Below, piece by piece: positions 8,326-61,521 of a stretch of DNA of 64,000 bases. The stretch's first letter is position 1, and each line of letters opens with the position of its first letter. This DNA comes from Closterium sp. NIES-65 (taxonomy: Eukaryota > Streptophyta > Zygnematophyceae > Desmidiales > Closteriaceae), in the NCBI GenBank assembly GCA_948144175.1, contig CANXME010002016.1, positions 77,501 to 141,500 on the forward strand, in the 5' to 3' direction. Below the pieces are notes generated by a model. The model had not been told where the DNA came from and did not search any database. It saw only the letters and a list, made by a program, of their open reading frames with translations. Both the position numbers and the translations under genes were made by a program.

Positions 8326-11300
8326 ATGGTACGACTGGGATGGCTGTGCCGTTTTTATTCCGGTCTAATTTTTTGCGGATAGGTAGCGCTCCGTGACCTG
8401 GTTTTAGGGTGTAAGCGGTTTTTGCGGACCAAATTTAGGGTTAGATGTATCAGCTCTTTACGTAGTATCGACGACAAGCGCTTCGCTTCGTGCCGTTTTA
8501 AATCGAATTCCCCCATGGCGTGGGTTTGTCATGGCCTGGAATTCTTATCTGGAGCCCTGACATTTTGGTTTCCTTGGCCAAGTTAAGCTTAGTGGCTTGC
8601 CGTTTACCATGTAATTCGACGGACGTCTGAAACATTTCACCGAGTGCCTCTATGCCTCATGGCCGCGTCTATAGCTTGCTTCATGATCGGCGTTAAGAGG
8701 TCATCTCCAGGACTTTTTGCCGGCCGAGTGGACGGATAGTACAGTACACTGGTAGTGTCCCGAATAATATGCCGCTTTTACCGACGGTGTTACGCAGCAA
8801 CGATACTCCAGCTTCGTGCAGTTTAGCTAACCAGATGTCTGAGTCCGCTACGCGAAGCATACTGAAACTGATCGTTAACTAATTATTCCCCCGATTCTTT
8901 ATTTTCAACCTATACCGTTTTCCCTGTCTCTCCTTCCGTTCGTGCCTGCAGTTGGTCCCCAAAAAGAACCGTCTCTTGGTCTACAAGTACCTCTTCAGCG
9001 GTGAGTCATCCTGCTCGTTCCCCAGCTCCCCGCATCCCTCCCCGCTTCCCCCCTCCTCCTCCTCCCCCTCCCCCCTCCCCCCCACTCTTATTCCCCCCCT
9101 GTTCGTCCATCTCTTCAGTGCTGCGTCTTCCCCCCCCCTCCACCGTTCTCTGCTCCACACTTTCGTTCTCCCATTTGCCTCCAAATTACCCTGACCGATT
9201 CAGTTTTACAGATCCTTACGTGAAGAGAAACGGGATATTAGGGGGGAAGGGGGAAAAAGGGAGTGGAGTGGGGGAAGAGGTGGGTCAAGGAGTGTCAACG
9301 ATGGTTAGAGTTTTTTAAAGCTGTTCGAAACGGCAATGCTTGTGCGGCCAGAGGAAGGGAAGGGGTGTAACGCGATGGCTGGTTTCTTGCCATCGAACGG
9401 CCGTTACGGAGAGAGCAGATTCGGGCAGATGTTTCTTTCGGCGGAAAATTGTTTTTGAGATTAGTTTGACGGAGTTGATTGTTATGAGCCGGGGCTTTTT
9501 GCGTACGTCTGAAGACTCGAGATGCCCCGGGATCGGTGGTGGCAATGCGGCGAGAGATTAGAGAATTTGTGCCTGGAGTTACGTTAGTGGAGAGATCACA
9601 GAATTGGTTCAAAGAGTGACGTTAGTTGAGTGATAAAAGGATTGCGCAGAGAGTGACGTTAGCAGAGAGGTTCGACACTCGAGGCGCGAGTGGCAATTTT
9701 GTGGCCTGGCTTCAGCCCGTCCGTAACTGTTCGACTTGGGGACCCGATTCAGAAATCTTGTGTCGAGGCGCCTTAAAGAACTAAAAATCTTGGTGGGGCT
9801 TGTCGTCCCCGCGCACGTGTGTCCGCGCGCGTGAGTGTCCGCGCAGGGTCGACCAGTGGGCGCGTCGACCGGTCGATCGTAAGGGAAGCGCCGTAGCACG
9901 GATATCTCACTATTGATTTTGTCGAACAAGTAAACTCTGAGAGCTTCGAGGGTCACTAGCACAGTTGTTTAACCTGCCCCCACTACCCCTTCCTACCCTT
10001 CCGCCCCTCTTGGCCCCGCCCCCCCTTTCCCCCAAGCACCCAGAGCTCCCTCTTGTGTCATCTCACCCCGTTCATTCCTGCTTGCCCCTCTCGCCCCTTC
10101 CCTGCCCCCTCATTCCAACAGAGGGAGTCCTGTTCGCGGAGAAGGACTTCAACCTGCCCAAGCACCCCGAGCTCCCAGCCTCTTTTCTGTCTTCTCACCC
10201 TTTTCCTTTTCCTCTTCCCCTTTTTCTCCCCTTCCCTGGCCCCTCGTCCCAACAGAGGGAGTCCTGTTCGCGGAGAAGGACTTCAACCTGCCCAAGCACC
10301 CCGAGCTCGAGGTCCCCAACCTGCAAGTGAGTAGCCTTGGTCCGATCTCGAGACTCCTGGCGTGTATTAGCTGTCTGGGATAGCATTCTGGTATACCATT
10401 GTCCGTCCGCCGTCCTCCCTAAGTCCTTGTCTCGTATTACCCGAAACCCCCACACCCACCCTTCCCTCCTCATCTCCCCGCTCCCACCACTCCCTCCTTA
10501 TCCCTCCGCCCCCAACCCAATTCCCTCCCACCTCCCTTCCCTCCCACCTCTCCCCCCCGCAGGTGATCAAGCTGATGCAGAGCTTCAAGTCGAAGGGGTT
10601 TGTGCGCGAGACGTTCGCGTGGCGGCACTACTACTGGTACCTCACCAACGAGGGGATCGAGCACCTCCGCGACTACCTCAACCTCACCTCCCCCTCTTTC
10701 CCCTCCTTTCTTCCCCTTCCTCATCTGACGCTTTTCCTCTTCCCTTTTCACTTTCTACCTGGCTCTTCCCCGTTTCCCTCTCCGCCCGCGCCCCCCCCCC
10801 TCTCCGCCCCCCGCCGCCACCACCCCCCTCTCTCCCCCCCCCCCCCAGGTGATCAAGCTGATGCAGAGCTTCAAGTCGAAGGGGTTTGTGCGCGAGACTT
10901 TCGCGTGGCGGCACTACTACTGGTACCTCACCAACGAGGGCATCGAGCACCTCCGCGACTACCTCAACCTCCCCTCCGAGATCGTTCCCGCCACCCTGAA
11001 GAAGTCCTCCCGCCCGCCCGGCCGCCCCATGGGCGCTGGCGGCGACCGCCCCCCCCGGTAAGTCAACGCTGGTCAACGCCAGTCAGCGCAGGTCAAACGT
11101 GGGGTAAGGCTTCTCTGCGATCGTCCCCGCCACCCTCAAAAAGTACTCCCGCCCGCCCGGCCGCCCCATGGGCGCTGGCGGCGACCGCCCTCCCCAGTGA
11201 GTCAATGCTAGTCAACGCTAGTCAATGTCAGTCAACATGTTAACTCTGCCCCATGGGTGCTCTCTACCCCCACCCCCGTTTCCAAGGACTACAATAGGAA

Positions 11301-12868: not shown

Positions 12869-15800
12869 ATGGCGTCCACGTTATTCAATAGGATGGACCT
12901 TTTCACGTGCTTCGTCTTTCTCCTCGTGCTCGGCCTGAGCCAACGCTTTCACCTCCTGCCGTCCGTCCCGTCGCCGGAAGAGTTCATATCCGACACAATG
13001 ATCCACCAGTCGGGAGTATCAGTGGCCGATGAAAGCTCGAGAGGGCCGCGGAGGCGTCTTCTAGAGGCTCCATCACAGGTATCCCATCCAATGTTCGGTC
13101 CATGTCCTCCCGTCCGTCCCGTCGCCGGAAGAGTTCCTATCCGACACGATGATCCACCAGTCAGTGGCCGATGAAAGCTCGAGAGGGCCGCGGAGGCGTC
13201 TGTTAGAAGCTCCGTCACAGGTATCCCATGTTCCGATCCATGTCCTCCTTAGTCTGCTTCTATTACGACGCTCCAGTGCTGGTGGTATCTTGCTACTCGC
13301 TCGGAAGACTTTAATACACTTGCGTGACAGTGGCGGTAGCATAACGAGGCAGAATAAGGGGCATGGCTTCTGGTGATGTTGATGGGGGGACATGGTAGAC
13401 CAGAAGCGTGGTTCGCGCCGTCAGTTTCGTGCAGCCTCGCTGTCGCTGAAGTACCTATGCAGACATGCAGATTTATAGAGTACGAATTGATCAAGCCAGG
13501 CGAGCGCAATCGACTCAAACGATTCTCACACGGCTGTTTCTACCACTGTGTCGAGCCTGACGAGATCTTTGGAGTCGACTGAAAAAATACGCTGTTGACT
13601 CAGTGATACCCACCCGACAAGTACAGAAACGGGTGATCACATGATATCATACAAGGAGTTTAAAGAGAAAGACACGTCGATCACAATTCTACGCAACTCG
13701 GATAGAAACGCCCATCCTTGATAAGTCTGTCAATGCCCCCGTTCGTACTGGAGTTGCCTTTGTCCATTCCGAAAGCCACCTAAGTAGAAACGTCAATCCT
13801 GAATTGCTACATCCGTGAATAACCGCGTATTATTCTCTACGACCTCACAAAGCCACCCGTTTTCATCGCTCGGACATCCATGAACGTCGATCCTTGCTTG
13901 AGTCGTCCGTAAATGCTCCCGTCTTTATGGCAGGCGGAGGATCGCGAGGCACAGAGGCAGATGGTGCGCGCGGCGGTGGAGCGATGGCGGAAGGAGCAGC
14001 GGGCGCGCGACAAGCGGGAGATGAACGAATCCATGCCGAACACGCAGCCGCCCAAGGGGGAGCGGTTCCTGCTGGGCCCGAAGATAACTGGTGAGTGTCT
14101 CTTGAGTCGACGCAAAGGCTACCTCGAGGGATGGACGAATCCATGCCGGACACGCAGCCGCCAAAGGGGAGCGGATCCTGCTAGGCCCGAAGATTACTGG
14201 CGAGTCTGGCTCTGCACGTCAATATATGAGGAGGTGCCTCAAGTCGGACGTTTGAAGGGAATGTTTTCTTCTGGAGCTACCGCGAGTCCGCATAGGTTTT
14301 CCAGTGCGTGCCTGCCACCGCGAGTCCGCATAGGTTTTCCAGTGCGTGCCTGCCACCGCGAGTCGTCTGTTGAATTATCGCAGAAGTCAAAGGGGTGCGT
14401 TCCTGCTGCGCACGTATATGATAGATAATTGTTTGCCCCGCATTGGCGAAGCGACTTAAATCCCCGGTAGTTCTGAGTGCTGGTAGTTCTCTTCGGATCG
14501 ACACGACGATCAGTTTTGTCCATCTCCCAATTTCCCTTCTCCTGCTCGGCACTTCGTTTCTTCCCCCCTGCCCTTTCCCTCCCCTTCCCCACTCTCTCCC
14601 CCGCAGACTGGGACGAGCTGCGCACAGTCGACGTGCACAAGCACCCAGCGAGCAAATCAACAGTCTTCTCTTTCCGCCTCTCCCCGTCCAATTCCCCGTT
14701 TCTCTCCCCGCTCCCCTCGTTTTCCCCTCCAGTCCGTTGCCCTAACCTCCCCTTCCCCCCTCTCCCCTTCCCCCGCAGACTGGGACGAGCAGCGCGCGGA
14801 CTACGTGCGGAAGCACCCGGAGAGCAACGAGACGCGAATTGGCTTGACCGTCTCATCTTTCCCCCCCTCCCCTCTCTCCCCCCCTCCCCACTCTCCCCCC
14901 TCCCCACGCGCAGACTGGGACGAGCAGCGGGCGGACTACTTGACGCGGCAGGGCAAGGCGCGCGTGATGCTGGTGACACCAGTCTGGGGTCGCTTTGTGG
15001 ATTCAACCAAACGGTCTTCTCTTTCTGCTCTTACCCTCCATTTTCCTTCTGGTCCCCTCCCCTTCCCCCCCCTCCCTCCTTTCCCCTTCCGCGCAGACTG
15101 GGACGAGCAGCGCGCGGACTATGTGCGGAAACACCCCGGTTGCAACGAGACGCGGCAGGGCAAGGCGCGCGTGATGCTGGTGACGGGGTCGCAGCCGGGC
15201 GTGTGCGACAACGACGTGGGCGACTTCCTGCTGCTCAAGTCGCTCAAGAACAAGCTCGATTACTGCTCGCCGCGAGACATCCAGGTGGGGAGAGGGCATA
15301 CGGAGTGCGGATTACGGGGTTGTTGAACTGCTGTGTGTCTGAATCTCAACCGATTTGCTGCTCAAGTCGCTCAAGAACAAGCTCGACTACTGCTCGCCGC
15401 GGGACATTCAGGTGCGACGTGACTGTATCGAGCGCTGCTCGCCATGCGATATTGGCGTACTGGACTATTTCCCTCATGCCTCTCCTGGCAGATCTACTAC
15501 AGCACAGCCATCTTGGATCACTCTATAGACTCGTTCTGGGTGACTCTTGACCAACCCCTCCCCGCACTCCTTTTTTTCTACCTTGTTTCCCTCCCCCTTG
15601 CTTACTCTCCTATCAGATCTACTACAGCACGGCCATTCTGGATCGCTCTATGGACTCGTTCTGGGTGACCCTTCACCCACCACCCTCCAACCTCCCCTCT
15701 GCGTCATCCTGGGCCCCCCGGCACCATCCTTTCCCTCTCCTATCAGATCTACTACAGCACGGCCATTCTGGATCGCTCTATGGACTCGTTCTGGGTGACC

Positions 15801-18800
15801 CTTCACCCACCACCCTCCAACCTCCCCTCTGCGTCCCCCTGGGCCCCCCGGCACCATCCTTTCCCTCTCCTATCAGATCTACTACAGCACGGCCATTCTG
15901 GATCGCTCTATGGACTCGTTCTGGGTGAAGCTGCCGCTGCTGCGCAAGCTGATGCTGTCGCACGCCGAGGTGGAGTGGTTCTGGTGGATGGACTCCGATG
16001 CTGTTTTCACAGGTGAGGGAGTGGTGTGTAGTGCGGTGCAGCGCGGTGAAAGCCGGTTTGAAGAGGTGCTGGGAGGTGTGCATTGAGAGGTTCCAGAGGG
16101 CAAGAAGCTGATGCTGTCGCACGCCGAGGTGGAGTGGTTCTGGTGGATGGACTCCGATGCTGTTTTCACAGGTGAGAGTGGGTGTAGTGCGGTGCAGTGC
16201 GTTGCAGAGGGTGCTGGCTTACTGTAAGTGCTGTACAGGAGGGGAAGCTGATGCTGTCCCACGCCGAGGTGGAGTGGTTCTGTTGGATGGACTCCGGTGC
16301 TTTGTCCATGGTTCGGAGAAAGGGCTGATGTGAGAATGAGTGGTCTATTTGTGCTGGGAATGGGTGTACAGCGGTGAATTGCTGTGCCGTTTATCAGGTG
16401 CAAGGGCTGTTCATGCACCTCAATCGCAGATCAAACGCTCGACACGACACCCGTTCTCTTTCACATCTCTCGCCATCTCTGTCCAACTCTCCGCGTCTCT
16501 CGCCATCCCTCCTTCGTTTGTCCTACAGACATGACGTTTGATGTGCCGTTTGAGAAGTACGAACCACACGTCCACATGGTGATGCACGGATACTCATGCT
16601 GATGTTCCCCTGCCCCACTCCTCCCCGTTTCCCTGCGGCCCCGCCTCTCTCCCCCCCCCCCACTTAAACAGACATGACGTTTGATGTGCCGTTTGAGAAG
16701 TACGAGCCACACGTCCACATGGTGATGCACGGATATGACTCGCTGGTCTATGGCAAGAAGGACTGGTGAGCCCCTTGAAACCGTAGATGCTGTGTGTGTT
16801 GTGATTCTCATCACCCACGTTCACATGGTGATGCACGGATATGACTCGCTCGGCATGCCATACCCATGCCGTGCTGTGCTGCGCTGGGCCATGCCATGCC
16901 ACACCATGCCATGCAATGCCATGCCAGGCCATGCCATGCCATGCCACACCATGCCATGCAATGCCATGCCAGGCCATGCCATGCCATGCCACACCATGCC
17001 ATGCAATGCCATGCTGTGCTTATGAGGCGTATGAAGCTCCTGACTTCTCTCTCGTGTCATTCTGTGTCTTCCATGCCGTACCACCATGCCACACCATACC
17101 ACATCATACCATGCCATTCTCCACCACGCCATACCACATCATGCCGTACCGTGTGCATCACAGGGTGGGGCTCAACGCTGGCATCTACCTTATCCGAAAC
17201 TCGCAGGTCAGTCACATCGCCACAACCATTTCTGAGTCGATTGGAGAATCATGGGTTTAGGAGGATGTGTACCACATGGTATCACGACATGCTGTGTGCA
17301 TCACAGGGTGGGGCTCGACGCTGGCATCTACCTTATCCGGAACTCGCAGGTCAGTCACAGTCACAGCCACAGCCACCTCCACCATGATTACCCACCCTCC
17401 TCCCTCCCTGCTGATCGCTGGGTGTTCTTGGAAATCTTCACAAGTCACCACCAGCACCCTCCCCGCCTCCTGTTGAGCTCCATACCCGCGTCTCCACAAT
17501 GCCCTGTGGCCATCTCTTCGCTTACCAGTCTGTGAGTTTTGAGTCGACCCAAAACGAGGTGTCTTTTGAGTCGACTCCAATGTCACCAGCACCCTCCCCG
17601 CCTCCTGTTGAGCTCCATACCCGCGTCTCCAGAATGCCCTGTGGCCATCTCTTCGCTTACCAGTCTGTGACTTTTGAGTCGACTCAAATCGAGGTGTCTT
17701 TTGAGTCGACTCAAAACGAGGTGTCTTTTGAGTCGACTCCAATGTCACCAGCACCCTCCCCGCCTCCTGTTGAGCTCCATACCCGCGTCTCCAGAATGCC
17801 CTGTGGCCATCTCTTCGCTTACCAGTCTGTGACTTTTGAGTCGACTCAAATCGAGGTGTCTTTTGAGTCGACTCAAAACGAGGTGTCTTTTGAGTCGACT
17901 CCAATGTCACCAGCACCCTCCCCGCCTCCTGTTGAGCTCCATACCCGCGTATACACACGGCCCTGTGGCCATCTCTTCGCCTACAAGTCTGAGTCTTCTG
18001 TTGGCTCAGTCCGGAGTGAAGGGGGTGTGCCTTCGCTTGCTCCAATTCCTCCTCTCATGCCTTCCTCTCGCATCTCCTTGCTTCCCCCCTCTTCTCTCTC
18101 TCCCATTGTTAAGTCACTGGATTTCAGGGATGAATTGCAGGGAGTTTTTGAAAATTCTCATAAACTCCCTGCACTGTGAAGTTGTTGAATTTCAGGGAGG
18201 AATTGGCGTAGTTTGGCGTAAAGGAACCTGCCTTCCCTTGTTCTGATTCTTCCTCCACACCTCCATTTCGCATCCCCTTGCCCCCCCTCCCCTTGCTCTC
18301 TCCCGCAGTGGTCGCCTGACTTCATGGCGCAGTTCGGAGTGAAGGGGCTTGCCTATTCTTGCTCCTGATCCCAGGACCTCTGAATCCCTCTCACCCCCCA
18401 TTTCTCCCATTCCCCTCCTCTTCCTCCCCCGCAGTGGTCGCTTGGCTTCATGGAGGACTTGGCGCAGTTCGGAGTGAAGGTGCCTGCCTTCCCTTGCTCC
18501 GTACTGCAGTGCCTCTGAATACCTTTTTAAACCCCCTTCTTCTCTCGAACTCCCCCCTCATCCCCCAGTGGTCGCTTGACTGGACTTGGCGCAGTTCGGA
18601 GTGAAGGGGCTTGCCTATTCTTGCTCCTGATCCCAGGACCTCTGAATCCCTCTCACTCCCCATTTCTCCCATTCCCCTCTTCTTCCTCCCCCCCAGTGGT
18701 CGCTTGACTTCATGGAGGACTTGGCGCAGTTCGGAGTGAAGGGGCCGATGAGGGACGCAGCAGGCGTGAAGCTGTTCAAGGAGCTCTCTGTAAGACCCCT

Positions 18801-21081: not shown

Positions 21082-22347
21082 AAATCCTTTCTAATGGTAG
21101 GGTGCAGTGCAATTGCATCTTAGGCAATAGTATCCTATCTAAGCAATAGGTACGACCTAGGACTGACGAGATATTTATTTCCCTTCATTCTTCCTCGTAT
21201 TCCTGATCATAACCGTTGCAAATAAACTTGAGGTTTCATTGTTTAGTGCTGATGAATTTCAGCTAGCTATTTGAAGGGTTTTCAATGGCCTACACGACCA
21301 CTGAATAAAAGTGTTTGGAATTGCGTCAGCTAAGCGGAGAACAGGTACGTTGGAGCCCCGTTTCGCCATCGTCGTTGAAAGGGCGGGAAACGCGGCGGCC
21401 GTCACGTTCCGTCATCAACCAGCGCCACGTATGCGCCCTATTTGCTGACTAAGCGGACCGTTCGGTTCCCCCGAAGAGTGGTGCAGGGGGGAGACGAAGC
21501 CTCCAGATTTCAAAATCCGCCCACTTTACGAGTCGCGGTGCCGACATTTTCAACATTACCCAAATTCGCCCCTGCCTCAAATGGGGGAAGATAGCAGTCC
21601 CAGTTAGCAGTATAAGCTAGAGGATTCCTCAAATCTCGTTTCTCGTTGGTTTTTCGACTTGCATTCATGGTGGCTTGTCAGAAGAAATAGGCGCGACGTG
21701 CACAGAGACAGGGGCGACGCCAGGTTCGTAAAAGCAGCTGTGACCATAAGCCTGGAGAGAAACTGGCGAGATTCGCGAATCTTGAAACGTGCGTCACGTC
21801 TGCCGCTGGCTGGCATAGGTTCAAGTTACCGAGGTGTCAGGAAACGCTTTGAAGCATCACAGGTGCATATTGAACCCATAATACGGTTGACAACTGGCTA
21901 CTGAGCCCTCAATTATGCCTGCTGGTTACTTACTGAATCGAAGTAGTTTTGTTCTTCGCTTCTCACAGTGCTCGTGCTCTGTCGTTATGCTGCAAGTTAG
22001 AACATGCTATGTACACAGGCGTGCGTCCCAATAGCCATAGTAGTAGTAGCATTAGAAGAACTCCTCGGTCCTATCGCTTCCCTAACAATCTACCACTCTC
22101 GTCCAGACTAAGGTGTTCGCAGGGCTATTGGAAATATATAGCAGCGAAGATTCTTGTTGATATGTTCGGTATAAGCTGACCTGTTAGGCGACTCAGAAAT
22201 CTTTGAACGCAGGACAGGAACGACTAGTTCCTTCTGGTGGTAACGCAACACTCGTGTGTCGCTCCTTCTCCGGAACGACGTAACAATTTTTTTTCCCCGC
22301 TGCGCGTATTAGAAATTTTCCAAGGTTTTTCTTCCTGCAACTCACGT
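21082..22347. other. Intergenic between GT34 and the expansin gene
   Basis: AT-rich just after the GT34 stop (3' UTR), then mixed sequence with no supported gene. It should include the expansin promoter. Confidence 0.6.
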
Positions 22348-23619: not shown

Positions 23620-23679
<60 letters not shown>

Positions 23680-42504: not shown

Positions 42505-42832
42505 TGTTACGGGTGCAATGAATCGAGGTAGCGAGAATTGCACTAAGGTGTCAAACGAGTACAAAATGTGAGCGAAGGCATGAGCGAGCATTTATACGCG
42601 AAACATGCAAAACGGTAACGCGGTGCGTGCGAACTTGCTAGTGCTACGCTGGAGCGAGGCTCGGGCTAGTCCCGAAGCGTAGGCCGATACGGCCATGCCA
42701 GCAGTGCGAGGTTTGGCAAAACAGTGCGCGCGAAGTCGGCGAAGTTCCGTTAGCAGTAACGGGCGAACAGTCGGCTGTTGCTGTACGCGATGTAGTCGGC
42801 TCCGTAAGGAATGCCTGAGAAAATTCCTTACA
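42505..42832 (-). repeat. 3' LTR of the gypsy element
   Basis: 328 bp, TGTTACGGG...CCTTACA, no difference seen from 47694-48021. Confidence 0.96.
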
Positions 42833-42848
42833 CTACCCCCCCCCTTAA
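42833..42848 (-). promoter_or_regulatory. Polypurine tract of the gypsy element
   Basis: AAGGGGGGGGGTAG on the minus strand abuts the 3' LTR. Confidence 0.85.
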
Positions 42849-42861
42849 GAAGCCCCCTCCG

Positions 42862-47510: not shown

Positions 47511-47677
47511 GACGAAGGGCGTCGGCTCGTCTTAGTCTAGGCGCAGTCGTGGCTGCACGCGTTTACGAGAGAACGCGAGGACAGCGGCTCCTAGGGGCTA
47601 AGGTGCGTGAGTCCCTTCGAGTGAAAAATCAAAAGTTGATTTCCTGGTGTGCGGAGATGCGCGGTCCGAAAGAAAGG

Positions 47678-47692
47678 GGCTCTGATAACCAA
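47678..47692 (-). promoter_or_regulatory. Primer-binding site of the gypsy element
   Basis: TTGGTTATCAGAGCC on the minus strand, close to TGGTATCAGAGC with one extra T, one base from the 5' LTR. Confidence 0.8.
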
Positions 47693-47693
47693 G

Positions 47694-48021
47694 TGTTACG
47701 GGTGCAATGAATCGAGGTAGCGAGAATTGCACTAAGGTGTCAAACGAGTACAAAATGTGAGCGAAGGCATGAGCGAGCATTTATACGCGAAACATGCAAA
47801 ACGGTAACGCGGTGCGTGCGAACTTGCTAGTGCTACGCTGGAGCGAGGCTCGGGCTAGTCCCGAAGCGTAGGCCGATACGGCCATGCCAGCAGTGCGAGG
47901 TTTGGCAAAACAGTGCGCGCGAAGTCGGCGAAGTTCCGTTAGCAGTAACGGGCGAACAGTCGGCTGTTGCTGTACGCGATGTAGTCGGCTCCGTAAGGAA
48001 TGCCTGAGAAAATTCCTTACA
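47694..48021 (-). repeat. 5' LTR of the gypsy element
   Basis: 328 bp, matching the 3' LTR. A TATAAAT box on the minus strand lies at 47779-47785. Confidence 0.96.
47779..47785 (-). promoter_or_regulatory. TATA box in the gypsy 5' LTR
   Basis: TATAAAT on the minus strand, the likely core promoter. Confidence 0.6.
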
Positions 48022-48026
48022 GTACT
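48022..48026. repeat. Target site duplication GTACT, right copy (gypsy element)
   Basis: Matches 42500-42504. Confidence 0.95.
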
Positions 48027-49076: not shown

Positions 49077-52000
49077 ATGGCGAAGGTTGCGGATCTTATA
49101 ATGGGTCTCGGCATTTCCCACGGCACTGATTTGTTACTCGCCCACAGCCCGTTCAGCGAATTCGACGAACTCCTTCGCAAAACGCTGACGAAGGTCCCTC
49201 ACAACATGCAATGGTTCTCCTGGGTATGTCAGCTCGCTTTGTTTCTCGCCTTGTCGTTCGCCTTGTTTCTCTCCTTGTTTTCATGACGCACCGTCTGATT
49301 CCATTCGTTTCGAATTCTCATAGGCAGCTCCTGTAATTACCCTCTTCCCCACCTTCATCCTCGCGTTTCAACCCAGTCGGGCTGGTCCTTGCTTTTTGCT
49401 ACCCTCTTCTCAAAATGCATATCCCGTCCGCTGGTCCTTGATTTCTGTTGCCTGTTTAGTTTGCATTGAAGCGTTTATACGTCTCTATATTCCTCCTCTG
49501 TACACATAAGTTACTTCTTTTTTTTTGTCAGAGTTGTTTATGTACCACCTAATCATGCGTACCTTGATGCTGCAGGGTGTTTTTGAGAATTCTCAAAAAC
49601 ACCCTAATCATGCGTACCTTGATGCTGCAGGGTGTTTTTGAGAATTCTCAAAAACACCCTAATCATGCGTACCTTGATGCTGCAGGGCGTTTTTGAGAAT
49701 TCTCAAAAACACCCTAATCATGCGTACCTTGATGCTGCAGGGTGTTTTTGAGAATCTCAAAAACACCCTAATCATGCGTACCTTGATGCTGCAGGGTGTT
49801 TTTGAGAATTCTCAATAACACCCTAATCATGCGTACCTTAATGCTGCAGGGTGTTTTTGAGAATTCTCAAAAACACCCTAATCATGCGTACCTTGATGCT
49901 GCAGGGTGTTTTTGAGAATTCTCAAAAACACCCTAATCATGCGTACCTTGATGCTGCAGGTTGTTTTTGAGAATTCTCAATAACACCTTAATCATGCATA
50001 CCTTCCTGCTTATCTTGCGGAACCACACACGGCTACAGACTTGGGGATTATAAAAGTCCGCAATTCCGAACCCCTTCCCCTTTTCCCATTCCCTTCTCCC
50101 CAACCTCCACCCCTCTCCCCCTTTTCCCCCTTCCTCCCACCCCTCTCCGCCCGCCCTTCACCCCTCTCTCCCATTTCCCCGTTCCTCCCACCCGTCTTCC
50201 CCCCCTCTACCCCTGCTCCCCATTCCTCCCTTCCTACCGACCACCTTCCCTTCCATGTCTGCAGGGCTTTGATCAAGTGATGTTCCCATTCCACATCCAC
50301 CAAGGATGCATATTCTCCATAGCTGCACATGAGTGCAATATTCTTCCTAAAACTCTTTTGACACTTGCCCCCCGCACTCTTCCCCCCTCCCCCCTCCACT
50401 CCTCTCCCCCTCCCTCCTTCCCCCCAACCACTGTCCTCTCCATGACAGCAGGGCTTTGACCAAGTGGTGTTCCTCTTACACAAATACCAAGAATACATAT
50501 TCTCCAAAGCCCCATACGAGTTTGCTCGTTCTTTCTAAAACTCTTTCTGCACTTGACCCTTCCCCTCATCCCCCCTTCTCCTTCCCCACCCCCCCTACCC
50601 CCCTCCACTCCTCTTCCACCTTCCCTCCTTCCTCCCAAACACCTTCCTCTCCATGTCTGCAGGGCTTTGATCAAGTGATGTTCCTATTCCACGTCTACCA
50701 AGGGATACATATTCTCCATAGCAACGTACCAGTGCTTCACATTGCACTTGCCCCTGCAACCCCTCCCCCCCCCCCGTTTCCCTTTTTTTTTCTACGTCTG
50801 CAGGGCTTTGATCAAGTGATGTTCCTATTCCACATCTACCAAGGTTACATATTCTCCATAGCCGCATACGAGTGCTTCACTCGCAAAGAAGCGCGCAGCA
50901 AACTCACAGCCCTCCGAAACCTCTTCCTCTCCTCCGCCTCCACCCCCTCCCCCCCCACAAAACCTTCCGACCTGCCCGAAGCTGCCCGCGAAACCCTCGA
51001 AACGACCATGAAATCATGGGTGGTGAACTCCCGAGGGGTGGTCCCGGCTCGACTCATCCTGATCCTCCATCCAGGTGCCCCTAAGAAGTTTCTGACCAAG
51101 GAAGATCAGGCTCCGGATTTTGTAATGGCAGCCGAAGGCAGCGGCACAGCCCGGCTCAAAAGCGCTCTGGAGGAAATCGATGAAAACGACGACGATTTCG
51201 TGTTCACCATTCGCAAGCCGGGGTCTGGGAACAACGGGACGGGCGACGACGACGACGGGGAGGATTTCGTGTTCAACATCCCCAAGAAGATCGTTCAGGC
51301 AGTTGCTGCACCGATCATCTTCACCAGCCCGCATCCCAGGCAGACGCCTGGGTTCGGCCAGGGCCCGACTGGAGCTAGTGGGAACAGCGGGAGCAGCAAC
51401 CGGGTTCCCTCGGGACAACAGTCTGGACGAAAGAGCCCTGCCATGTCTGGTGCTAAGGTTTCCCCTGATGACGCAGCCGCAGCGGGAGGGGGAGAGGGAG
51501 GGGGAGGCGAGGGAAACCCGGCCCAGAGCGGACTGATAGCCCGAGCCAGAGCTGCTTGGTCTGTACAGGTGGGGCGTTCGGGAGGGAAGGACGGTGGGGG
51601 GACGTGGGAAGGGGAGAAGATCCGGGGACAGGTGGGGAATTTGGCCCCGTCTGGGCTGACTTGGGAGGAGGAGATTGCATCTCAGCTGGCGTCGGTAGGG
51701 GTGCTGGTGGGGCCGGCGAAGGCCCAGGCCATGGCTGCTGCTGCCGCTGCTGTGAAAGAAGGGAAGGGCGGCGGAGGGGATGGGTCTGGCGGCGGTGCTG
51801 CTGGTGGCGGTGCTGGTGGAGTAGGAGGAGGAGTTGGAGGGGCGGGGGCAGGGGGGGGGGCAGCAGGAGCAGGAGGAGGAGGGGGAGCTGCAGCAGGTGC
51901 CATGACTCCTAGGAGTAGGCTGAACCAGCCACCAATCGATCACGCTCGCTCGTTCTCCACTGCTGGGTCAGGGTCCGGGTTTGGCATGCAGGGGTCGCGG

Positions 52001-52198
52001 CTCATAGACCGTGTGTACGTGGGCATGCCGGCACAGGCGGCAGGCAGGTTGTTCACCCGCAACATGTCCATGCCCAATGGGGGAAGGCCAGCTGGCGGCG
52101 CGGTCGGAGCTGGGATTGGCGGGGGGCTTGGAAGGCTGGCTCGGGGGCTAAAAAAGACGTTTAACCTGCAGAGCAGTCATGATAAACTGATTGGGTGA
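49077..52198 (+). CDS. Conserved-looking protein of unknown function, two exons
   Basis: Family not recognised. Proposed join 49077-49223 and 50804-52198, 513 residues, phase 0 across a GT-AG intron of 1.6 kb. The first 200 residues look like a folded domain: MAKVADLIMGLGISHGTDLL, FDELLRKTLTKVPHNMQWFSW, then a hydrophobic GFDQVMFLFHIYQGYIFSIAAYE stretch and ARLILILHPGAPKKFL. An acidic part follows with two related blocks (DDDFVFTIRK and GEDFVFNIPKK). The rest is Gly/Ala-rich, ending MSMPNGGRPAGG...KKTFNLQSSHDKLIG. Repetition of the exon 2 start and gene end as truncated copies supports both boundaries, because such copies in this window track real exons. No function is proposed. Confidence 0.75.
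49549..49995 (+). repeat. Satellite of 55-bp units, each with a 30-bp palindrome
   Basis: About eight units of CTAATCATGCGTACCTTGAT, GCTGCA, then a perfect palindrome GGGTGTTTTTGAGAA plus its complement. A few units have one or two changes. It lies in the intron of the unknown gene. Confidence 0.95.
50265..50740 (+). repeat. Three upstream 5' copies of exon 2 of the unknown gene
   Basis: Copies start at 50265, 50452 and 50663 after CAG acceptors, each beginning GGCTTTGA.CAAGTG, encoding FDQV.F.FH.YQ, then diverging. The intact exon starts at 50804. Confidence 0.92.
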
Positions 52199-52242: not shown

Positions 52243-52790
52243 TTTGGGGGTCGAGGGTTTTGGCATGCAGGGGTTGCGGTTGATGGACCGGGTATACGTG
52301 GGCATTCCGGCACAGGCGGCAGGAAGGTTGTTCACCCGCAACACGTCCATGCCCAATGGCGGGCGGCCAGCTGGCGGCGCGATCGGAGCTGGGCTGAGCG
52401 GGGGCCCTGGGGAGGCTGGCTAGGGGGCTGAAAAGGACGTTCAATTTGCAAAGCAGCCATGACAAGCTGATTGGTTGAGCTGTTGGGGGGATTGGGATCG
52501 CAGAAGTTGGAGAAGGGACATTTTTGCTGTGGGGGGTTCAATAGAGTGCTGGGGATGGGCTGAAAAAGGCATTCAAGCTGCAGAGCAGCCATGACAAGCT
52601 GATTTGGTGACTCCATTAGCTTCAAGAGACAGGTGGTGGGACGAGTAGGTTCTTGGTTTTTTTAGGCGGCTCGGAGAGTGCAGCAAGGGTTGGTCAAACG
52701 TAGGCTTGGAAGCTTGGGAGGCTGGTGATGGGGTTGTTTGCGACATTCGCTCTGCAAATTAACCATTATAAGGTGATTGGGTGGTTTGCA
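52243..52790 (+). repeat. Downstream copies of the 3' end of the unknown gene
   Basis: 52256-52479 repeats the last 75 codons with a frameshift near the end. 52545-52610 repeats only the last 20 codons. 52714-52785 is a worn third copy. Confidence 0.9.
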
Positions 52791-54300: not shown

Positions 54301-57300
54301 ATGGCAGTCGCCTCATCCGCTGCGACTACGACGGCGATCGCTTCACGGGGAGCGTCCGTCGCATCACGGGGCCTTTCCCGCGCCGCCACCTCCATAGAAG
54401 CCACTCAGGCAGCCCTGCTGGCCGCAAACAACGCCGCTACTCACGGCGCGCACGCTTCGGGCTCTTTCACCTGCCTGCAATGGTCGTCGACTCTCAGAAG
54501 CCAATCGCAACGGGCAAGTCCCTTCTCTAGTTCATCTTTCTTCTCAGGCGGTCTTTCTCGGGACTCGTTGTTATCATCGCACCCAAGCGGAGCTGCGACG
54601 CGTCTCGCGTCTACCTTTTCCGCGCACGCGTCTTCTTCCGACTCCTCCGCGAGCGCAAGCCCTATCGGTTCCGCCTCTGCCCCCCGCTCCGCTGTCGCTG
54701 GCGCAACTCCCGCCGTCCGCCAGGGTGCAGTGCTGCCGACATCGGAGTACACTCTTGATGAGTCTTCTGAATCCTCGTCGTCCGATTCCGAATCCGACGG
54801 CTCTGGTTCACGCGCGCTTGAGGCGCTGTACCAGGCCCGCGCCAAGAGCGGATCATCTGCGGGTTCAGGGGTTGGGCGGGAGTTTCCTCGGGGTTTAACA
54901 TCCGATTCGGAAGCGGAGGTTTTTGATAGCGAGGATGAGGGGAGCAGCGACGAGGAGGGAGAGGTGGTGCTGGTTGACGTGTCCGATACTGACGTGGACA
55001 GGGATGAGCTAGCGATCGAGAGCCTCGGCCTCGCGACAATTCTTGAGCAGTCGCTGCTGAAGCGAGGAATCGCACGGCTCTTCCCCATTCAGGTATGACC
55101 TAAAGATCAGTCTGGGCATTCATCTTGATCCAGTTGGATCGTTTTCATTCGTAGTATGCCCGTTGTTTGTCCGCCTTTCATGCAATCGCGGCTGAGGGTT
55201 TGACGGGTTTTGAGTATGAGTTCCGTGCTCCGGTAATCGCATCACGTGGTGCTTGCGCCATCATTAGAGGGGCGCAACATCACTGCGCGTGTCCAGTTGA
55301 CTCTACCCTGTAACCTCTCTCATCCCTCCCACTCTTCCCGCTCTTCCACCTTACCTCGTCCCAAACCCTTCCCCTTATGCTCCGCCAATGGCAGCACGCG
55401 GTGCTGGCTCCGTCGATGGAGGGGCGCGACATCATCGCGCGCGCCAAGACGGGCACGGGGAAGACGTTGGCGTTCGGCATTCCCATCCTGGAGCGCATCA
55501 CGCGCGAGATCGAGGAGAACAACGGCAGGTGCGTGGCTTGAAAGTGTTAGCTGTTAGCTGTCTGAATGTGCGTTGTGAGTTTTTTTTTTGTTATGTTTTT
55601 TGTTTTTGTTTTTGTGTGTTTGTAACCTAGATTTGATTTTTTTCCTACTTGTTTTGGTTTCCTTTTCTGCCCTCTGTCCCAAGATGGCCGTCTCCGTCAT
55701 AAGGCGGCTCACTAGTGCAGTCAGTGGATGAAACAGCGTGTGTTTACGTACTTGATTGGTTAAGAACTTTAGAAAGACGAAGAAGTTCACGTTTCATGTC
55801 TATTCGTTACAAAGATTCAGATCGGTTTAGATCGAAACGAACGTGTTGCCGGCTGATGAAAAAAACACCTCAGTTATGCAGAGTCACCAAAGATTGAGTC
55901 AAAGATGACTATCATCCCCTCCTCTCCTCGCGCACTCCTTTTCCAGCCTATCACTAACCCATGCTCCCTTCTTACCCCTCTCCCTCCCCCCTCTCTCCCG
56001 CTTCCCCTTTCCCCCCCAACCCCCCTCATCCCGTTCCGCACCCACAGGCGCCCGTTCCGCGCGCCCCGCTGCCTGGTCCTCGCGCCGACGCGCGAGCTAG
56101 CCAAGCAGGTGGAGCGCGAGTTCTGCGAGTCCGCGCCGAACCTCTCCACGGCGTGCGTGTACGGCGGCGTCTCAATCGAAGCGCAGATGCGCCAGCTCAA
56201 GCGCGGCGTCGACGTGGTCGTGGGCACGCCCGGGCGCCTGATCGACCTGATCGAGCGCGGCACGCTGAGCCTGCAGGAGATCCAGTTCATGGTGCTGGAC
56301 GAGGCGGATCAGATGCTGGCCGTTGGATTCGAGGAGGATGTGGAGCGGATCATGGAGAACTTGCCGGAAGGCGGGCGCATTCAGATGAGCCTGTTCTCGG
56401 CGACCATGCCGTCTTGGGTCAAGAAGCTCAGCCGGAAGTACCTAACCAGCCCGCTTACAATCGACCTGGTGGGTTGAGCTGTGCAATTCCTGTGTTTGAG
56501 GGGGTTGAGGTCGGTTCCCTTGGTAGGGGTCGTGTAGGCGGGCGCATTCAGATTAGCCTGTTCTCGGCGACCATGCCTTCTTGGGTTAAGAAGCTCAGCC
56601 GCAAGTACCACACCAGCCCGCTCACCATCGATTTGGTGAGCTGTTCTGTGCGGTGGGAGGGGGTTATAGTCGGTGGAGGGGGTCGTGGGTCAAGAAACTC
56701 AGCCGGAAGTATCTCACCAGCCCGCTCACCATCGACCCGATGGGCCCCCTCTCCCTCCTTCTCCTCCTCTTCCGTAGCAGTGTGAGGGAGTGAGTGAGGC
56801 AGAGTGAGGGAGTGAGTGAGGGAGATTCAGTTTATGGTGCTGGACGAGGCGGATCAGATGCTGGCGGTGGGGTTCGAGGAGGATGAGGAGGATGAAGGGG
56901 ATGAGGGGGAGGATGAGGAGGAGAGGGTGAGGAGGGTGAGGAGGACGGGGAGGACGAGGAGAGGGCATTCGCCTGCTGTGCGTGTTCGCCCTCTTTGCGT
57001 TGGGGGCCACTGCTTACCCCGTTACTCACCCTCCCTTCTCCCCTAACCGACTCCCCTTCCCACATACCCACAGGTGGGCGAGCAGGAGGAGAAGCTCGCG
57101 GAGGGCATTCTCCTGCTGTGCGTGCGCAGGTCTACTGCTCGCCCCGCCCCTCACCGTCCATTCCCCCACCTTCCCCCTCTCTGTATGTGCCTCGCAGGTG
57201 GGCGAGCAGGAGGAGAAGCTCGCGGAGGGCATTCGCCTGCTGTGCGTGCGCGCGCCCAATGCATCCAAGCGCTCCATTCTCGTCGACCTCATCACGGTAC

Positions 57301-60300
57301 GTGTTCGTGAGGAGTGCAAAGCGGTTGGCTACGGTTTTGGGCACAGTCAAAGGGAGAGCCTTATGCCTGCTGTGCGTGCGCGCGCCCAACGCATCCAAGC
57401 GCTCCATTCTCGTTGACCGCATCACGGTATGCGGTAGTGAGGAGTGCAGAGCGGTTGGATATGGTGTTGGGCACAGCCAAAGGGGGAGTTAGTCGAAGGG
57501 GAAGTTTGTCAAAGAGAGAGTTCGTCTCAGTGCCTGACATAACGTTATCAAAGGTTATGTCTGCTGTGCGGGGATGCCTGACATAGCGCTCCATTCCATA
57601 TTTGCTTATCTACCCTCCTTAATTACTCCCTTTACCCAGGTCCATGCTCTGGGTGGCAAGACCATCGTCTTTACTCAGACCAAGAAGGACGCGGACGAGG
57701 TGGCCATGGCGCTGCTGGTGACACCCCCATATCCTCCCCTTCTCCCCCCTCCCCCACACACCGCCAGGTCCACGCTATGGGTGGCAAGACAATTGTCTTC
57801 ACGCAAACCAAGAAGGACGCGGACGAGGTCGCCATGGCGCTGGGTCGCTCGGTGGGCTGTGAGGCGCTGCACGGGGACATCCCCCAGCAGCAGAGGGAGC
57901 GCACGCTGCAGGCGTTCAGGGACGGACGATTCGTGGTGCTGGTGGCGACTGATGTGGCGGCGAGAGGGCTTGATATCCCCAACGTCGACCTGGTGAGTTG
58001 GAGAGGGAGGGGAATGGGGGGAAAGGGATGATGCCGTGGGTCGTTCGGTGGGCTGTGAGGCCCTTCACGGGGAGACATTTCCCAGCAGCAGAGGGAGCGC
58101 ACCCTGCAGGCGTTCAGGGACGGGCGATTCGTGGTGCTCGTGGCCACTGATGTGGCTGCCAGAGGGCCCGATGTCCCTACCGTTGACCTCGTGAGTTGAA
58201 AGGGGGTATGGGGGCACGGGAGAAAGGGGGGAACAGGGGGAATGCACTGGGTCGCTCGGTGGGCTGTGAGGTGCTGCACGGGGACATCCCCCAGCAGCAG
58301 AGGGAGTGCACGCTGCAGGCGTTCAGAGACGGCCTCATGCTCGTGGTGCTCGTGGCGACTGATGTGGCTGCCAGAGGGCCCGATGTCCCTACTGTTGACC
58401 TCGTGAGTGTGGGCGGTTTTCTGACCTGACAAAGGACAGTGCTTGCTTGTCTATGAACCGTAGAGGTTCCTAGAGGAAGAAACCATGGTTAGTGAGCTTC
58501 AAGGAAGGAGGTGATACTCTGGACAGAACTCCATTTATAAGGACAAAGCTCCATGTGGATATTAAGTGTCCAAGCCACCAAAAATAATATGTGGACAAAG
58601 CTCCATGTGGCTTGGAACTGTTTTCATTCTTGTTCTCCCGCTCCCTCCTCCCCCCTCCATACCTGTGTAGCCGCACATAAGTGTCTGCGGCTCGGAATTG
58701 TTGTCATTTGTGTTCTCCCGCTCCCTCGTCCCCCCTCCCTCGTCCCCCCTCCCTGCCTATGAGATTTCCAACGACCTTGAGACATCTGTGCATCAGTGAA
58801 CTTAGACTTCCACTCACTCCCCCCCACCCACGCTCCAACACCCGTTCATTCCCCCTGTGCTTTCTTCCCGGCCAGGTGATTCACTACGAGATCCCCAACG
58901 ACCCTGAGACGTTTGTGCATCGGTCGGGGCGAACGGGGCGAGCTGGCAAGACTGGATGCACCATCCTCATGTACACTGACTCGCAGGTGTGTGATGCTAA
59001 CCGATGTGACTATGGCGTGTGCTTGTAAAGTTGCACCATCCTCATGTATACGGACTCGCAGGTGAGGTTGATTGTGTGATTGTGAAAGGTGGGACTGTGT
59101 ATGTAAGGAGTTTAGTGGACTCATAAGCCTTGGTGCACCGAACGGGGCGAGCGGGCAAGACCGGGAGCACCATCCTCCTCATGTACACGGATGTGACTAC
59201 ATTAGATGTTATGCACCACACCTGTGGACATGCAAGTTTGGAGGTCGCAAGTTTGAGAAGGCCTCCCCGCCCCACCCGGACGACGTGCTCCAAGCCTCTG
59301 CCAACCAGTCCGCCGCACTCATCTTCCCATGCCCCTCTCTCCCTCCTCTTCCCCCTTCCTTCCCCCAACCAGCTCCGGTCCCTGCGCATGATAGAGCGGG
59401 ACATCGGCTGCAAGTTTGAGAAGGCCTCCCCGCCCCACCCCGACGATGTCCTTCAAGCCTCGGCCAACCAATCCGCTGCCCTCATCAACCGGGTCCACCC
59501 TGAACTCGCGGAGTCCTTCCTGGAAACTGCCGAGAAGCTTCTCGAGGAGCGCGGCCCGATAGCGCTAGCTGCCGCGATCGCCCACCTGAGCGGGTTCAGC
59601 CAGCCGCCCGCCGCCCGGTCGCTGCTGACGCACGAGGAGGGGTATGTGACTGTGCGCGTGATCCGCACGGCCAAGAGCCGCAACGGCCCGCTCATCTCCC
59701 CACGCGCGGTCATGGGGACTCTCGGGGAGATCTGCCGCCGCGCTGCTGATAATGTTGGGAAGATCAAGATCCTGGGCGAGCGAGATGTGAGTGGGCTGGT
59801 TTTGGCGGGACTGGGGGATGGGGATGGATGGGTCATGAGTGGGTGGGGAGGGAGTCATGTGTTGCCGGGCGGTGGACAATGTCGGGAAGATCAAGATCCT
59901 GGGCGAGCGAGATGTGAGTGCGTGGATTTAGAAGGACGGGGGATGGGGAGTGGTGTTTGACTTGCCAGACAATGCGGTCAAAGATCTGCCCAGTTTCAAG
60001 ATTTTTGTCGCAAGCTTGCTCTCTCTCCCCCTCGTTCCCTCTCTCTAATCCCCTCTTTCTCCCTCTCTGTCACGCCCTCCCTCCTTTCAGGTGGAGGGAG
60101 CCGTGTTTGACCTGCCAGAGGACGTGGCAAAGGAGTTGCTGAGCCTTAAGATTGACAACGGCGACGTCTTTGACATCCCGCGCCAGGTGGGTGCGCGGTT
60201 CTGCTTTGTCTTAAAGAGCATTTGTGTTGATAGCTTATGTTGATAATAAATATGTCTGATATCTTATATTAGAAAACAAGGTGTGTGCGTCCCCCCGTCA

Positions 60301-61521
60301 GCTGCCCATGCTGGTACATGTTGACGCTCGTGGTGGCAGTGACAGGGATGTATCACTAGAAAATGCCGAGGCTGATTTCCCCCCTTCCCTCTGCCTTCAT
60401 ATTTTCGCGCCCATCCCATGTGCCTCTCAGCTGCCCACGCTGGTGGGTGATGATGTGCGGGGCGGAGGCAGGGACAGGGACAACTACGGGCGGTTTGGAT
60501 AGAAGGGGACACCTGTACTCATGCTTTTACATCCCCATCTCCCATCCTATGTGCCCTCTGCTCCTCCTCTTCCCACATTGGTGGATGATGATGTTCACAG
60601 CGGCAGGGACAGGGACAACTACAGGTGGTCTGGGTAGAAGTGGACACCTGAACTCATGCTTCTGTTCCATTCTCCCCTGCGCGGTGCTGTCTGTTTGCCT
60701 TGCCCATCCCTCCCATGTGCCTCTCAGCTGCCCACGCTGGTGGATGATGATGTGCGAGGAGGCAGGGACAGGGACAATTACGGGCGGTTCGGAGCCAGGG
60801 GAGGGGACAGGGGGAGGGGCGGAGGCGACAGGTACTCTCGCGGAGGGGACAGGGACAGGGGAGGAAGAGGAGGCGACCGTGACAGGGGTTTCAGGCGCGA
60901 TGACGGCGGCAGGAGAGAGAGGTAAGTGGTGTGATTTTATGGTATGTTGAAGTATGCTATAAGGGAAGCGGTTGAAAGGGACAGCTTCTCGTGTGCTGGG
61001 GTCAGGGAGAAAGGGAGGCGGGGCGACCATGGCAGGGGGTGCCACAATATTGTGTTTGCCTGTTCCATTTCTCCTGCTTGCACCTCTTCATACTCCTCTC
61101 CATGTGCATTTGCCACCAAACCAAATTGATACCTCACGTGTCTCATATCCGCGTCCTTTTCCCTCTACTCTTTCTTCTCTCTCTCTCTCTCCTCCATATC
61201 AGGTCTGGCAGCTGGGGTGACGTGGGTGACAGGCGCAGTAGCGGCGGCAGCAGGTTCGGTGGAGATCGCGACCGATTCTCCTCCCGGGATCGCCGCCCGG
61301 CTGGCGGAGGGTTGGTCAACCGCCGCAATTTCACCTCTGATGCGTGGGAGAGTGAGGACAGTGATGGATACTACACCCCATCCCCCTTGGAGCGCACGCG
61401 CAGCGCACCCGGCGGGTCGTATGGTCGCGGGGGTGCGGGAGGAGGGTTTTCAGGGGTTTGCTTCTTGTGCAAGCAACCTGGGCACAGGGCGGCAGACTGT
61501 CCTGTGGTGGCTGGCCGGTAG
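54301..61521 (+). CDS. RH3: DEAD-box RNA helicase RH3-like, probably plastid, 10 exons
   Basis: ATP-dependent RNA helicase; in land plants RH3 acts in chloroplast group II intron splicing and 50S ribosome assembly. Proposed join: 54301-55092, 55395-55528, 56048-56468, 57198-57296, 57768-57992, 58876-58986, 59373-59786, 60091-60186, 60728-60921, 61203-61521; 934 residues, all phases agree, GT-AG. Residues 1-100 are Ala/Ser/Arg-rich like a transit peptide, then an acidic Ser-rich part. Motifs: FPIQ at the end of exon 1, AKTGTGKT (281-288), PTRELA, TPGR, DEAD (393-396), SAT (426-428), [31 protein letters not shown] (572-581). A GUCT domain spans about 640-740 ([20 protein letters not shown]), then an RGG-rich tail and a CCHC knuckle at 915-928 ([14 protein letters not shown]). 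[12 protein letters not shown] and the GUCT-knuckle order separate RH3 from mitochondrial RH9/53. ATG 54301 is the first in frame. Confidence 0.94.
56540..56895 (+). repeat. Three downstream copies of RH3 exon 3 parts
   Basis: 56540-56636 and 56681-56740 repeat the exon end ([24 protein letters not shown]), the first with a GTGAG donor. 56820-56890 repeats the middle, including DEAD. Confidence 0.92.
56950..57129 (+). repeat. Upstream copies of RH3 exon 4
   Basis: A fragment near 56960-56990 and a copy at 57074-57129 with a CCACAG acceptor encoding [18 protein letters not shown]. The intact exon is at 57198. Confidence 0.9.
57364..57426 (+). repeat. Downstream copy of the RH3 exon 4 end
   Basis: Repeats [19 protein letters not shown] and keeps a GTATG donor. 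Confidence 0.92.
57641..57716 (+). repeat. Upstream 5' copy of RH3 exon 5
   Basis: Acceptor CCCAG, then [20 protein letters not shown] and VAMAL, then divergence. The intact exon starts at 57768. Confidence 0.93.
58034..58405 (+). repeat. Two downstream copies of RH3 exon 5
   Basis: 58034-58192 and 58243-58405 repeat GRSVGCE.LHGD through the exon end and keep GTGAG donors. Both read PDVPTVDL for LDIPNVDL; the first has an internal frameshift. Confidence 0.92.
58755..58803 (+). repeat. Upstream fragment of RH3 exon 6
   Basis: Worn copy of [13 protein letters not shown]. The intact exon starts at 58876. Confidence 0.85.
59030..59200 (+). repeat. Two downstream fragments of RH3 exon 6
   Basis: 59030-59061 repeats [10 protein letters not shown] with a GTGAG donor. 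59130-59200 repeats [20 protein letters not shown]. Confidence 0.9.
59240..59328 (+). repeat. Upstream fragment of RH3 exon 7
   Basis: Repeats [20 protein letters not shown] and the codons following, before the intact exon at 59373. Confidence 0.92.
59866..60005 (+). repeat. Copy of the RH3 exon 7 end and worn copy of the exon 8 start
   Basis: 59866-59913 repeats [13 protein letters not shown] with its GTGAG donor. 59950-60005 is a diverged [16 protein letters not shown] fragment. Confidence 0.88.
60299..60640 (+). repeat. Three upstream 5' copies of RH3 exon 9
   Basis: Copies near 60301, 60430 and 60573 repeat [12 protein letters not shown] and RDRDNYGRF with changes, the first two after a CAG acceptor. 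The intact exon starts at 60728. Confidence 0.92.

Follow-up and report, generated by a model that had tools for sequence, protein, structure and literature searches.

We analysed a stretch of 64,000 nucleotides (the window) from the zygnematophycean alga Closterium sp. NIES-65, C1718:77501-141500 of an assembly with 874,075,685 bases in 2,400 contigs, in which multi-exon genes carry partial copies of their own exons in the adjacent introns. The accessible text on NIES-65 (Closterium peracerosum-strigosum-littorale) gives 876 Mb, PacBio reads and a Canu assembly (PMC10407611). The window holds an RPS10 gene, a GT34 gene, an expansin gene, a GH16 gene, a gene at 50-52 kb to which no family was assigned, and an RH3-like gene. 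The gene set is of streptophyte type, as GT34 resembles xyloglucan 6-xylosyltransferases (E 6e-120), expansin and GH16 are both present, and the eS10 chains that match RPS10 best are presumably land-plant entries. A scan of viral contigs with RPS10 found no relative. The expansin-like protein is encoded at 22228-25902 by one long open frame with repeat tracts, including 34 ACC units.

Thirty exons were modelled (RPS10 5, GT34 10, GH16 4, the 50-52 kb gene 1 and RH3 10), with splice sites and reading frame used to set the borders; for GH16 the model covers part of the gene. Splicing of the intact exons only gives a single open frame in GT34 (10 exons, 452 amino acids and a stop), in the RH3-like gene (10 exons, 934 amino acids and a stop) and in RPS10 (5 exons, 180 amino acids and a stop, with the start codon outside the model). 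The GT34 protein is collinear with xyloglucan xylosyltransferase 2 (residues 108-434, E 6e-120) and has no internal repeats, the RPS10 protein is collinear with solved eS10 over residues 1-167, and the RH3 protein with solved DEAD-box proteins over the helicase core. Hence, the copies are neither needed in these three proteins nor fit into them.

Each exon was aligned to its own flanking introns, and a match scoring at least 24 was counted as a copy. Dinucleotide-shuffled introns scored at most 22.6 (180 comparisons) and reverse-complemented introns at most 17.7 (60 comparisons), except for the low-complexity 50-52 kb exon, which reached 39.0 on the reverse strand by chance, so that its five copies are less certain. 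In total, 56 partial copies were found at 21 of the 30 modelled exons, occupying 34 of 53 intron sides. The initial annotation had described partial exon copies in five genes and at more than twenty exons, and this observation is confirmed, with correct coordinates; however, GH16 has copies at only one of its four modelled exons and nine of the 30 exons have none.

All intact exons and copies lie on the plus strand. Intact exons are placed by the gene models, for exons 2 and 3 of RPS10 and exon 2 of RH3 also by alignment, and copies by alignment, with identity to the parent exon in brackets for many of them. In RPS10, exon 2 (10256..10326) has an upstream copy at 10122..10174 (100%), and exon 3 (10849..11057) has one upstream at 10563..10702 (94%) and one downstream at 11113..11195 (92%). 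In GT34, exon A, which carries the start codon (12869..13078), and exon B (13934..14090) each have a downstream copy, at 13088..13220 (83%) and 14125..14199 (88%), respectively. Exon 1 (15097..15284) has upstream copies at 14779..14836 (90%) and 14914..14993 (68%, with internal deletions) and a downstream copy at 15356..15411 (95%). Exon 2 (15877..16012) is preceded by copies at 15492..15543 (90%), 15617..15668 (100%) and 15747..15798 (100%) and followed by copies at 16105..16171 (100%) and 16245..16308 (91%). Exon 3 (16672..16765) has an upstream copy at 16529..16601 (92%) and a downstream copy at 16816..16860 that keeps neither exon end. Exon 4 is present as two whole copies, the first at 17164..17206 and the second at 17307..17349 (95%). 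Exon 5 (18697..18789) has three upstream copies, at 18309..18348, 18435..18484 (96%) and 18569..18610, and two downstream, at 18861..18921 and 18970..19033 (91%). Exon 6 (19481..19617) has an upstream copy with an in-frame stop (19265..19358), an upstream fragment with neither end (19365..19392) and downstream copies at 19705..19778 and 19876..19920. Exon 7 (20367..20513) has upstream copies at 19957..20019 (90%), 20101..20164 and 20239..20294 and a downstream copy at 20555..20631. The GT34 intron after exon 4 also holds an array of 135/162-bp units with TTTTGAGTCGACTC motifs (17449-18000), in which no exon sequence was recognised.

In GH16, exon 2 (28413..28516) has two upstream copies, one with neither end (28166..28203) and one that has lost its AG (28279..28338). 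The intact exon of the 50-52 kb gene (50804..52194) has three upstream copies with probably over-extended ends, at 50265..50413 (73%), 50452..50644 (68%) and 50663..50802 (75%), all of which begin at exon position 1 behind an AG; downstream copies lie at 52248..52474 (GT lost) and 52506..52604 (70%). Just upstream of this gene lies a satellite (49548-50004) in which a 55-bp unit with the palindromic core TTTTTGAGAATTCTCAAAAA is repeated about 8.3 times; a similar palindrome is found near 18135-18175 in a GT34 intron.

In RH3, exon 2 (55395..55528) has one upstream copy, without its AG (55243..55296). Exon 3 (56048..56468) is followed by a copy that stops 4 nt short of the exon end and was counted as keeping neither (56495..56631), by a copy at 56682..56737 (89%) and by an internal fragment with neither end (56813..56901). 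Exon 4 (57198..57296) has upstream copies at 56934..56998 and 57074..57138 (91%) and a downstream copy at 57353..57426 (91%); exon 5 (57768..57992) has one upstream at 57640..57714 (89%) and two frameshifted copies downstream (58031..58189 and 58244..58401). Exon 6 (58876..58986) has an upstream copy with neither end (58757..58797) and downstream copies at 59032..59061 and 59139..59191, the latter with neither end. Exon 7 (59373..59786) has an upstream fragment with neither end (59247..59323) and a downstream copy at 59844..59913, and exon 8 (60091..60186) an upstream copy with neither end (59946..60003). Exon 9 (60728..60921) has three upstream copies (60302..60348, 60431..60511 and 60569..60629, the last without its AG) and a weak downstream copy with neither end (60963..61038).

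The copies are strictly local. At the score cut of 24, exons match 34 of the 53 introns adjacent to them; the figure falls to 1 of 165 for non-adjacent introns within the gene and to 2 of 622 for those of other genes, both of the latter through the low-complexity exon. The copies thus lie in the same gene as the parent exon, adjoin it and share its strand, as in partial tandem exon duplication, whereas the dispersal across unrelated introns that marks introners is not seen. Nor do they resemble mutually exclusive or alternative exons, given that a whole-exon copy with both splice sites occurs once among the 56 (GT34 exon 4). Of 6,607 exonic bases, 34.1% are matched by a copy with an identity of at least 80%, and 45% of the internal intron length of RPS10, GT34, GH16 and RH3 (6,408 of 14,197 bp) lies between the outermost copy and the exon. 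This abundance suggests that the introns of this alga grow by copying exon ends. When every kind of local duplication is counted, 44.3% of the bases in genes and 15.9% of those between genes (minisatellites included) are covered, and no base of the two long terminal repeat (LTR) elements; this comparison is biased because exons make old duplications easier to spot.

The polarity of the copies is equally regular. Upstream copies keep the exon start in 26 of 31 cases and downstream copies keep the exon end in 19 of 25, so that 45 of 56 keep the expected end; no copy has the opposite end alone, and one is a complete exon of 43 nt. This is the geometry left by one breakpoint inside the exon, and the strict polarity described in the initial annotation holds. 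Since tandem duplication with one surviving full exon forces this polarity, it backs a tandem origin and is not independent evidence for the selection that the initial annotation had invoked to keep one intact exon; the short tandem duplications with a breakpoint in the exon that it had proposed are supported by the locality, by homology of the intron parts and by the neutral state of the copies (both below). In all 11 introns that hold both kinds, every copy of the upstream exon precedes every copy of the downstream exon, for which the chance under random order is 1 in 3.1 million. The same order bears on intron gain, in which a tandemly duplicated exon segment carrying AGGT gives birth to the intron itself. 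This mechanism is known and also leaves exon-derived sequence in introns, according to the accessible part of PMC4974935, but by reasoning it predicts a copy of the downstream exon at the upstream donor, the opposite of what is seen in 11 of 11 introns, and we regard it as a barely credible origin for these copies.

If the copies are tandem duplications across splice junctions, the intron part of each unit should be duplicated as well, and this is seen in part: its homology reaches p<=0.05 in 16 of the 44 units in the window and, for other genes, in 15 of the 23 nearest units. After masking of exons and copies, five stretches of intron that adjoin copies still match at the correct offset. In an anchored test of 50-bp flanks, 16 of 47 exceed all null flanks; flanks of unrelated exons align at about 72%, so that flank identity alone has little power. 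These results also bear on the possibility that exon pieces entered the introns by templated insertion, or by repair from a cDNA of spliced messenger RNA (mRNA), without any intron flank. Such a route would account for the many units that are recognisable in the exon part only, with similarity dropping at the splice site. However, homologous intron sequence persists in 31 of the 67 units tested, the copies adjoin their own exon, and no copy was noticed that crosses a spliced exon-exon junction, although this was not searched for systematically; we therefore consider the route very unlikely. Copying at the RNA level, as the abrupt loss of similarity at the splice site might imply, was not accepted, given the homology of intron parts in many units and the low power of flank identity.

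The extent of the intron part differs between the two sides of the exon. On the acceptor side, all 23 units counted retain 53 nt of intron or more, whereas the donor side has units with as little as 9 nt (n=21; p 5e-4). In these counts, one acceptor-side unit of the 50-52 kb exon (38 nt) was left aside on account of its over-extended exon part, the two donor-side units of that exon were kept, and GT34 exon A (9 nt) was added by hand. The acceptor-side minimum fits selection that leaves a working branch point and pyrimidine tract to the intact exon. We also asked whether the junction lies at the unit centre; it does not, as the lengths of exon and intron parts are uncorrelated (Spearman 0.15, p 0.62, 13 units).

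A second contig, C2188 (5.53 Mb), carries the genes of the window in the same order. Gene-bearing stretches are 98.0-99.3% identical between the two loci, with an array stretch at 19926-20424 (82.6%) as the one exception. Between genes, identity is 82-94% in places, and retrotransposon insertions differ. A recount of RPS10, GT34 and RH3 on C2188 gave the same copies, with no exon side below the window count and one extra copy each at GT34 exon B (downstream), exon 1 (upstream) and exon 7 (upstream). The extra copies at exons B and 1 may correspond to hits just below the cut in the window (scores 18 and 23). Upstream of exon 7, C2188 has four units spaced 139-144 bp compared with three in the window, and its intron there exceeds that of the window by 204 bp. 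The additional unit has about 87% similarity to its neighbours, so that it may not be a recent gain but an old unit that the window has lost. In the three families searched, many matches come as two or three nearly identical sequences on separate contigs, as expected of a genome that is duplicated or haplotype-resolved.

The finding of the same copies on C2188 makes a local assembly error unlikely. The initial annotation had argued against assembly duplication from the several percent of divergence and the indels between copies, which is weak evidence on its own; its conclusion is now mostly settled by C2188. The broader form of this concern is that divergent haplotypes or homeologs were stitched together so that allelic exon pieces appear in tandem. 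An excess of third-position differences between copy and parent, as in a comparison of functional alleles, several copies that differ only silently (at RH3 exon 7 upstream, 8 of 8 differences are at position 3) and an RPS10 exon 2 copy that is identical up to its cut end count in favour of such stitching, as does the accessible text, which describes the presumed species complex as hybrid and variable in copy number (PMC10407611). It is countered by the shared copies on C2188, the frameshifts and stops in many copies, arrays of 3-4 units, copy order that is never interleaved in 11 introns, mismatches near the cut in the copy ends of RH3 exons 5 and 7, and changes between loci that are even over codon positions in the copies. 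Hence, we hold an artefact to be highly improbable.

The alignment of the two loci, in six segments (leaving out 17441-18009, 19881-20019 and all past 61150), shows how the copies evolve at present. Changes at codon positions 1/2/3 number 2/3/21 in exons and 6/7/7 in copies (Fisher p 0.0024). Exons change at a rate of 0.0042 (6,238 sites), copies at 0.0050 (4,213 sites) and other intron sequence at 0.0063 (10,858 sites). The even spread over codon positions indicates that the copies now evolve neutrally, and in the window they look like noncoding sequence without visible constraint. Frameshifts or in-frame stops are present in 21 of the 56 copies and absent from 35; with the even codon-position spread, this is the neutral decay typical of pseudogenic exons. 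In twelve pairs of chaperonin loci the corresponding changes are 1/0/3 in exons and 1/2/3 in copies, too few to weigh.

Selected copies, for instance poison exons or the decoys that the initial annotation had envisaged, regulating splicing, would nevertheless explain why 34 of 53 intron sides are occupied, why some exon parts are unusually well preserved and why splice sites are often retained (AG in 23 of 26 copies, GT in 15 of 19). In the chaperonin pairs, too, copies changed at 6 of 3,181 sites compared with 309 of 32,068 in the other flank, the latter inflated by one pair with 187 changes. Against this, the changes between the window loci are even over codon positions at a rate near that of introns, AG and GT retention is near the neutral expectation of about 77%, and unit number varies between loci, so that we judge a function for the copies decidedly unlikely. 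The comparison of copies with their parents had suggested selection through codon bias, with differences at codon positions 1/2/3 of 130/115/268 and the strongest excess at parental third positions occupied by A or T; copy-versus-copy differences have a mild excess (88/89/131). Selection on this ground was rejected, given the even changes between loci. The excess is presumably due in part to silent turnover in the parent and is in part unexplained.

For a sample not chosen for copies, we picked exons of the chaperonin (PF00118) and proteasome (PF00227) families for their conservation; a profile match here stands for the exon, and start and end are those of the match. Copies were found at 21 of 30 exon loci outside the window, and the 59 copies comprise 45 with the expected polarity, none with the opposite and 14 with neither end. 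For the chaperonins, 93 matches were found, 30 loci were cut out and 16 exon loci were tested, one per near-identical pair, at a score cut of 26: 11 have copies (29 copies, 19 with the expected polarity, none opposite and 10 neither). A first pass over 17 unoriented chaperonin loci had given 13 with copies at a cut of 24, with 1 of 102 shuffles reaching 25. For the proteasome there were 44 matches and 14 loci tested, two of which (L057 and L058) are copies of one exon; 10 have copies (30 copies, 26 with the expected polarity, none opposite and 4 neither). When exons were compared with the flanks of other loci, 30 of 1,740 comparisons reached the cut, with many of the same family or overlapping among the best twelve. 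In this sample of two families, the copies extend beyond the window.

Given their local and polar placement, their partly homologous intron parts, neutral decay, different unit numbers between loci and recurrence in other genes, the copies are, in our view, probably the remains of frequent short tandem duplications of about 100-300 bp spanning splice junctions. One breakpoint would lie inside the exon and the other in the adjacent intron. A duplication across the acceptor would leave a cut upstream copy and a downstream copy that forms the whole exon, and one across the donor the reverse; the intact exon would retain its splice sites and the cut copy would turn into intron. Because such a duplication is nearly invisible to the protein, it can drift to fixation, and fixation by drift is presumed here. 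Duplications would be tolerated as long as one intact exon remains, with the spliceosome presumably ignoring the cut copies by exon definition. The number of units in an array would later rise or fall, probably through unequal exchange, and cut copies would undergo neutral decay. What would cause DNA breaks at exon-intron junctions is a further, presumed part of this scheme.

Several observations weigh against tandem duplication in this simple form. In ten of the 56 copies, neither end of the exon is retained. For 28 of the 44 units in the window and 8 of the 23 outside it, the intron part shows no homology at p<=0.05, although the exon part is often 80-100% identical. Outer sides have a copy within 1,000 bases at the score cut in 0 of 8 cases (6 outer sides of terminal exons and 2 sides of the intronless expansin frame), compared with 34 of 53 intron sides (p 0.00075), and duplications confined to introns are rare, with one array (17449-18000) against the five matching stretches that adjoin copies; neither is predicted by pure chance placement. 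The third-position excess, both of copies against parents and among copies, is above a rough expectation. The RPS10 exon 2 and exon 3 copies look too well preserved for simple neutral ageing, as in the exon 2 copy 0 of 53 exon positions differ while the intron part is 77-83% identical; this hints, as a guess, at exon-biased gene conversion.

The bare outer sides and the scarcity of intron-only units suggest that the duplications are targeted to junctions. The tract composition of the five genes' introns agrees: sides with copies have more C/T before acceptors (0.78 compared with 0.61, p 0.016) and more G after donors (0.36 compared with 0.24, p 0.005). These sides also have longer introns (p 0.002 and 0.04), so that composition is confounded with intron length, and cause and effect are not separable. 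It is conceivable, if somewhat doubtful, that in this lineage a genome-wide process targets duplications to exon-intron junctions, with C/T-rich tracts ahead of acceptors and G-rich tracts behind donors as possible seeds. Such a process would be a main engine of intron growth and survivable only since splicing recognises whole exons, with the introns as a fossil record of cut exon ends.

Other features of the window include two young LTR retrotransposons with minus-strand frames, at 1399-7510 and 42505-48025, with LTR pairs that are 99.5% and 99.7% identical. The second is absent from the homologous place on C2188, where a relative of the first is found elsewhere. Positions 31068-33750 and 37624-40060 form a diverged inverted pair (66-72%) that is flanked by direct segments at 30147-30408 and 41700-41949, 92-96% identical and in swapped order.

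If tandem duplication across junctions holds for the whole genome, the copying of exon ends was largely responsible for intron growth in this alga of the streptophyte lineage. Such a genome would offer a natural test of exon definition, as most candidate decoy acceptors and donors have no partner, and a rate clock for short tandem duplications. It would also be a likely source of gene-prediction errors, because the cut copies are coding-like and often have splice sites. Literature searches gave no report in Closterium or the Zygnematophyceae among the matches listed, with subscription literature mostly outside their reach. Single cases of cross-junction tandem duplication are already known; new, as far as the searches go, are the density of the copies, their cut and polar form at both exon ends and their presence across unrelated genes.

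Internal gene duplications were reportedly found to be common across eukaryotes by Gao and Lynch in 2009, and the alga differs from such surveys in its density and junction focus. Tandem exon duplications and mutually exclusive exons likewise give exon homology in neighbouring introns. In the accessible part of one survey, the share of exonic bases with a copy of at least 80% identity is about 2% for human, 0.08% for fly and 0.06% for worm (PMC9013439), compared with the 34.1% found here with another method and sample, and the copies in the alga are cut, not whole. Exonize, as far as its accessible description goes, would class such matches as partial, inter-boundary or intronic, and nothing on this lineage was found in that text (PMC12343006). 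Mammalian pseudogenic exons are also exon duplicates that decay beside the gene with the codon patterns of decaying sequence; the accessible text associates them, defined by their disablements, with 0.4-1.0% of genes (PMC2718932), whereas the copies of the alga are cut, have a fixed polarity and occur at 21 of 30 window exons. A potato RdRp gene provides a further likeness: the available text describes a single tandem duplication that crosses the intron-exon boundary, so that part of the upstream exon piece becomes intron and the downstream copy gives the acceptor, and reads it as intron gain (PMC4974935). In potato this is one event in one gene, whereas the alga has dozens of events, in arrays, on acceptor and donor sides and in many genes.

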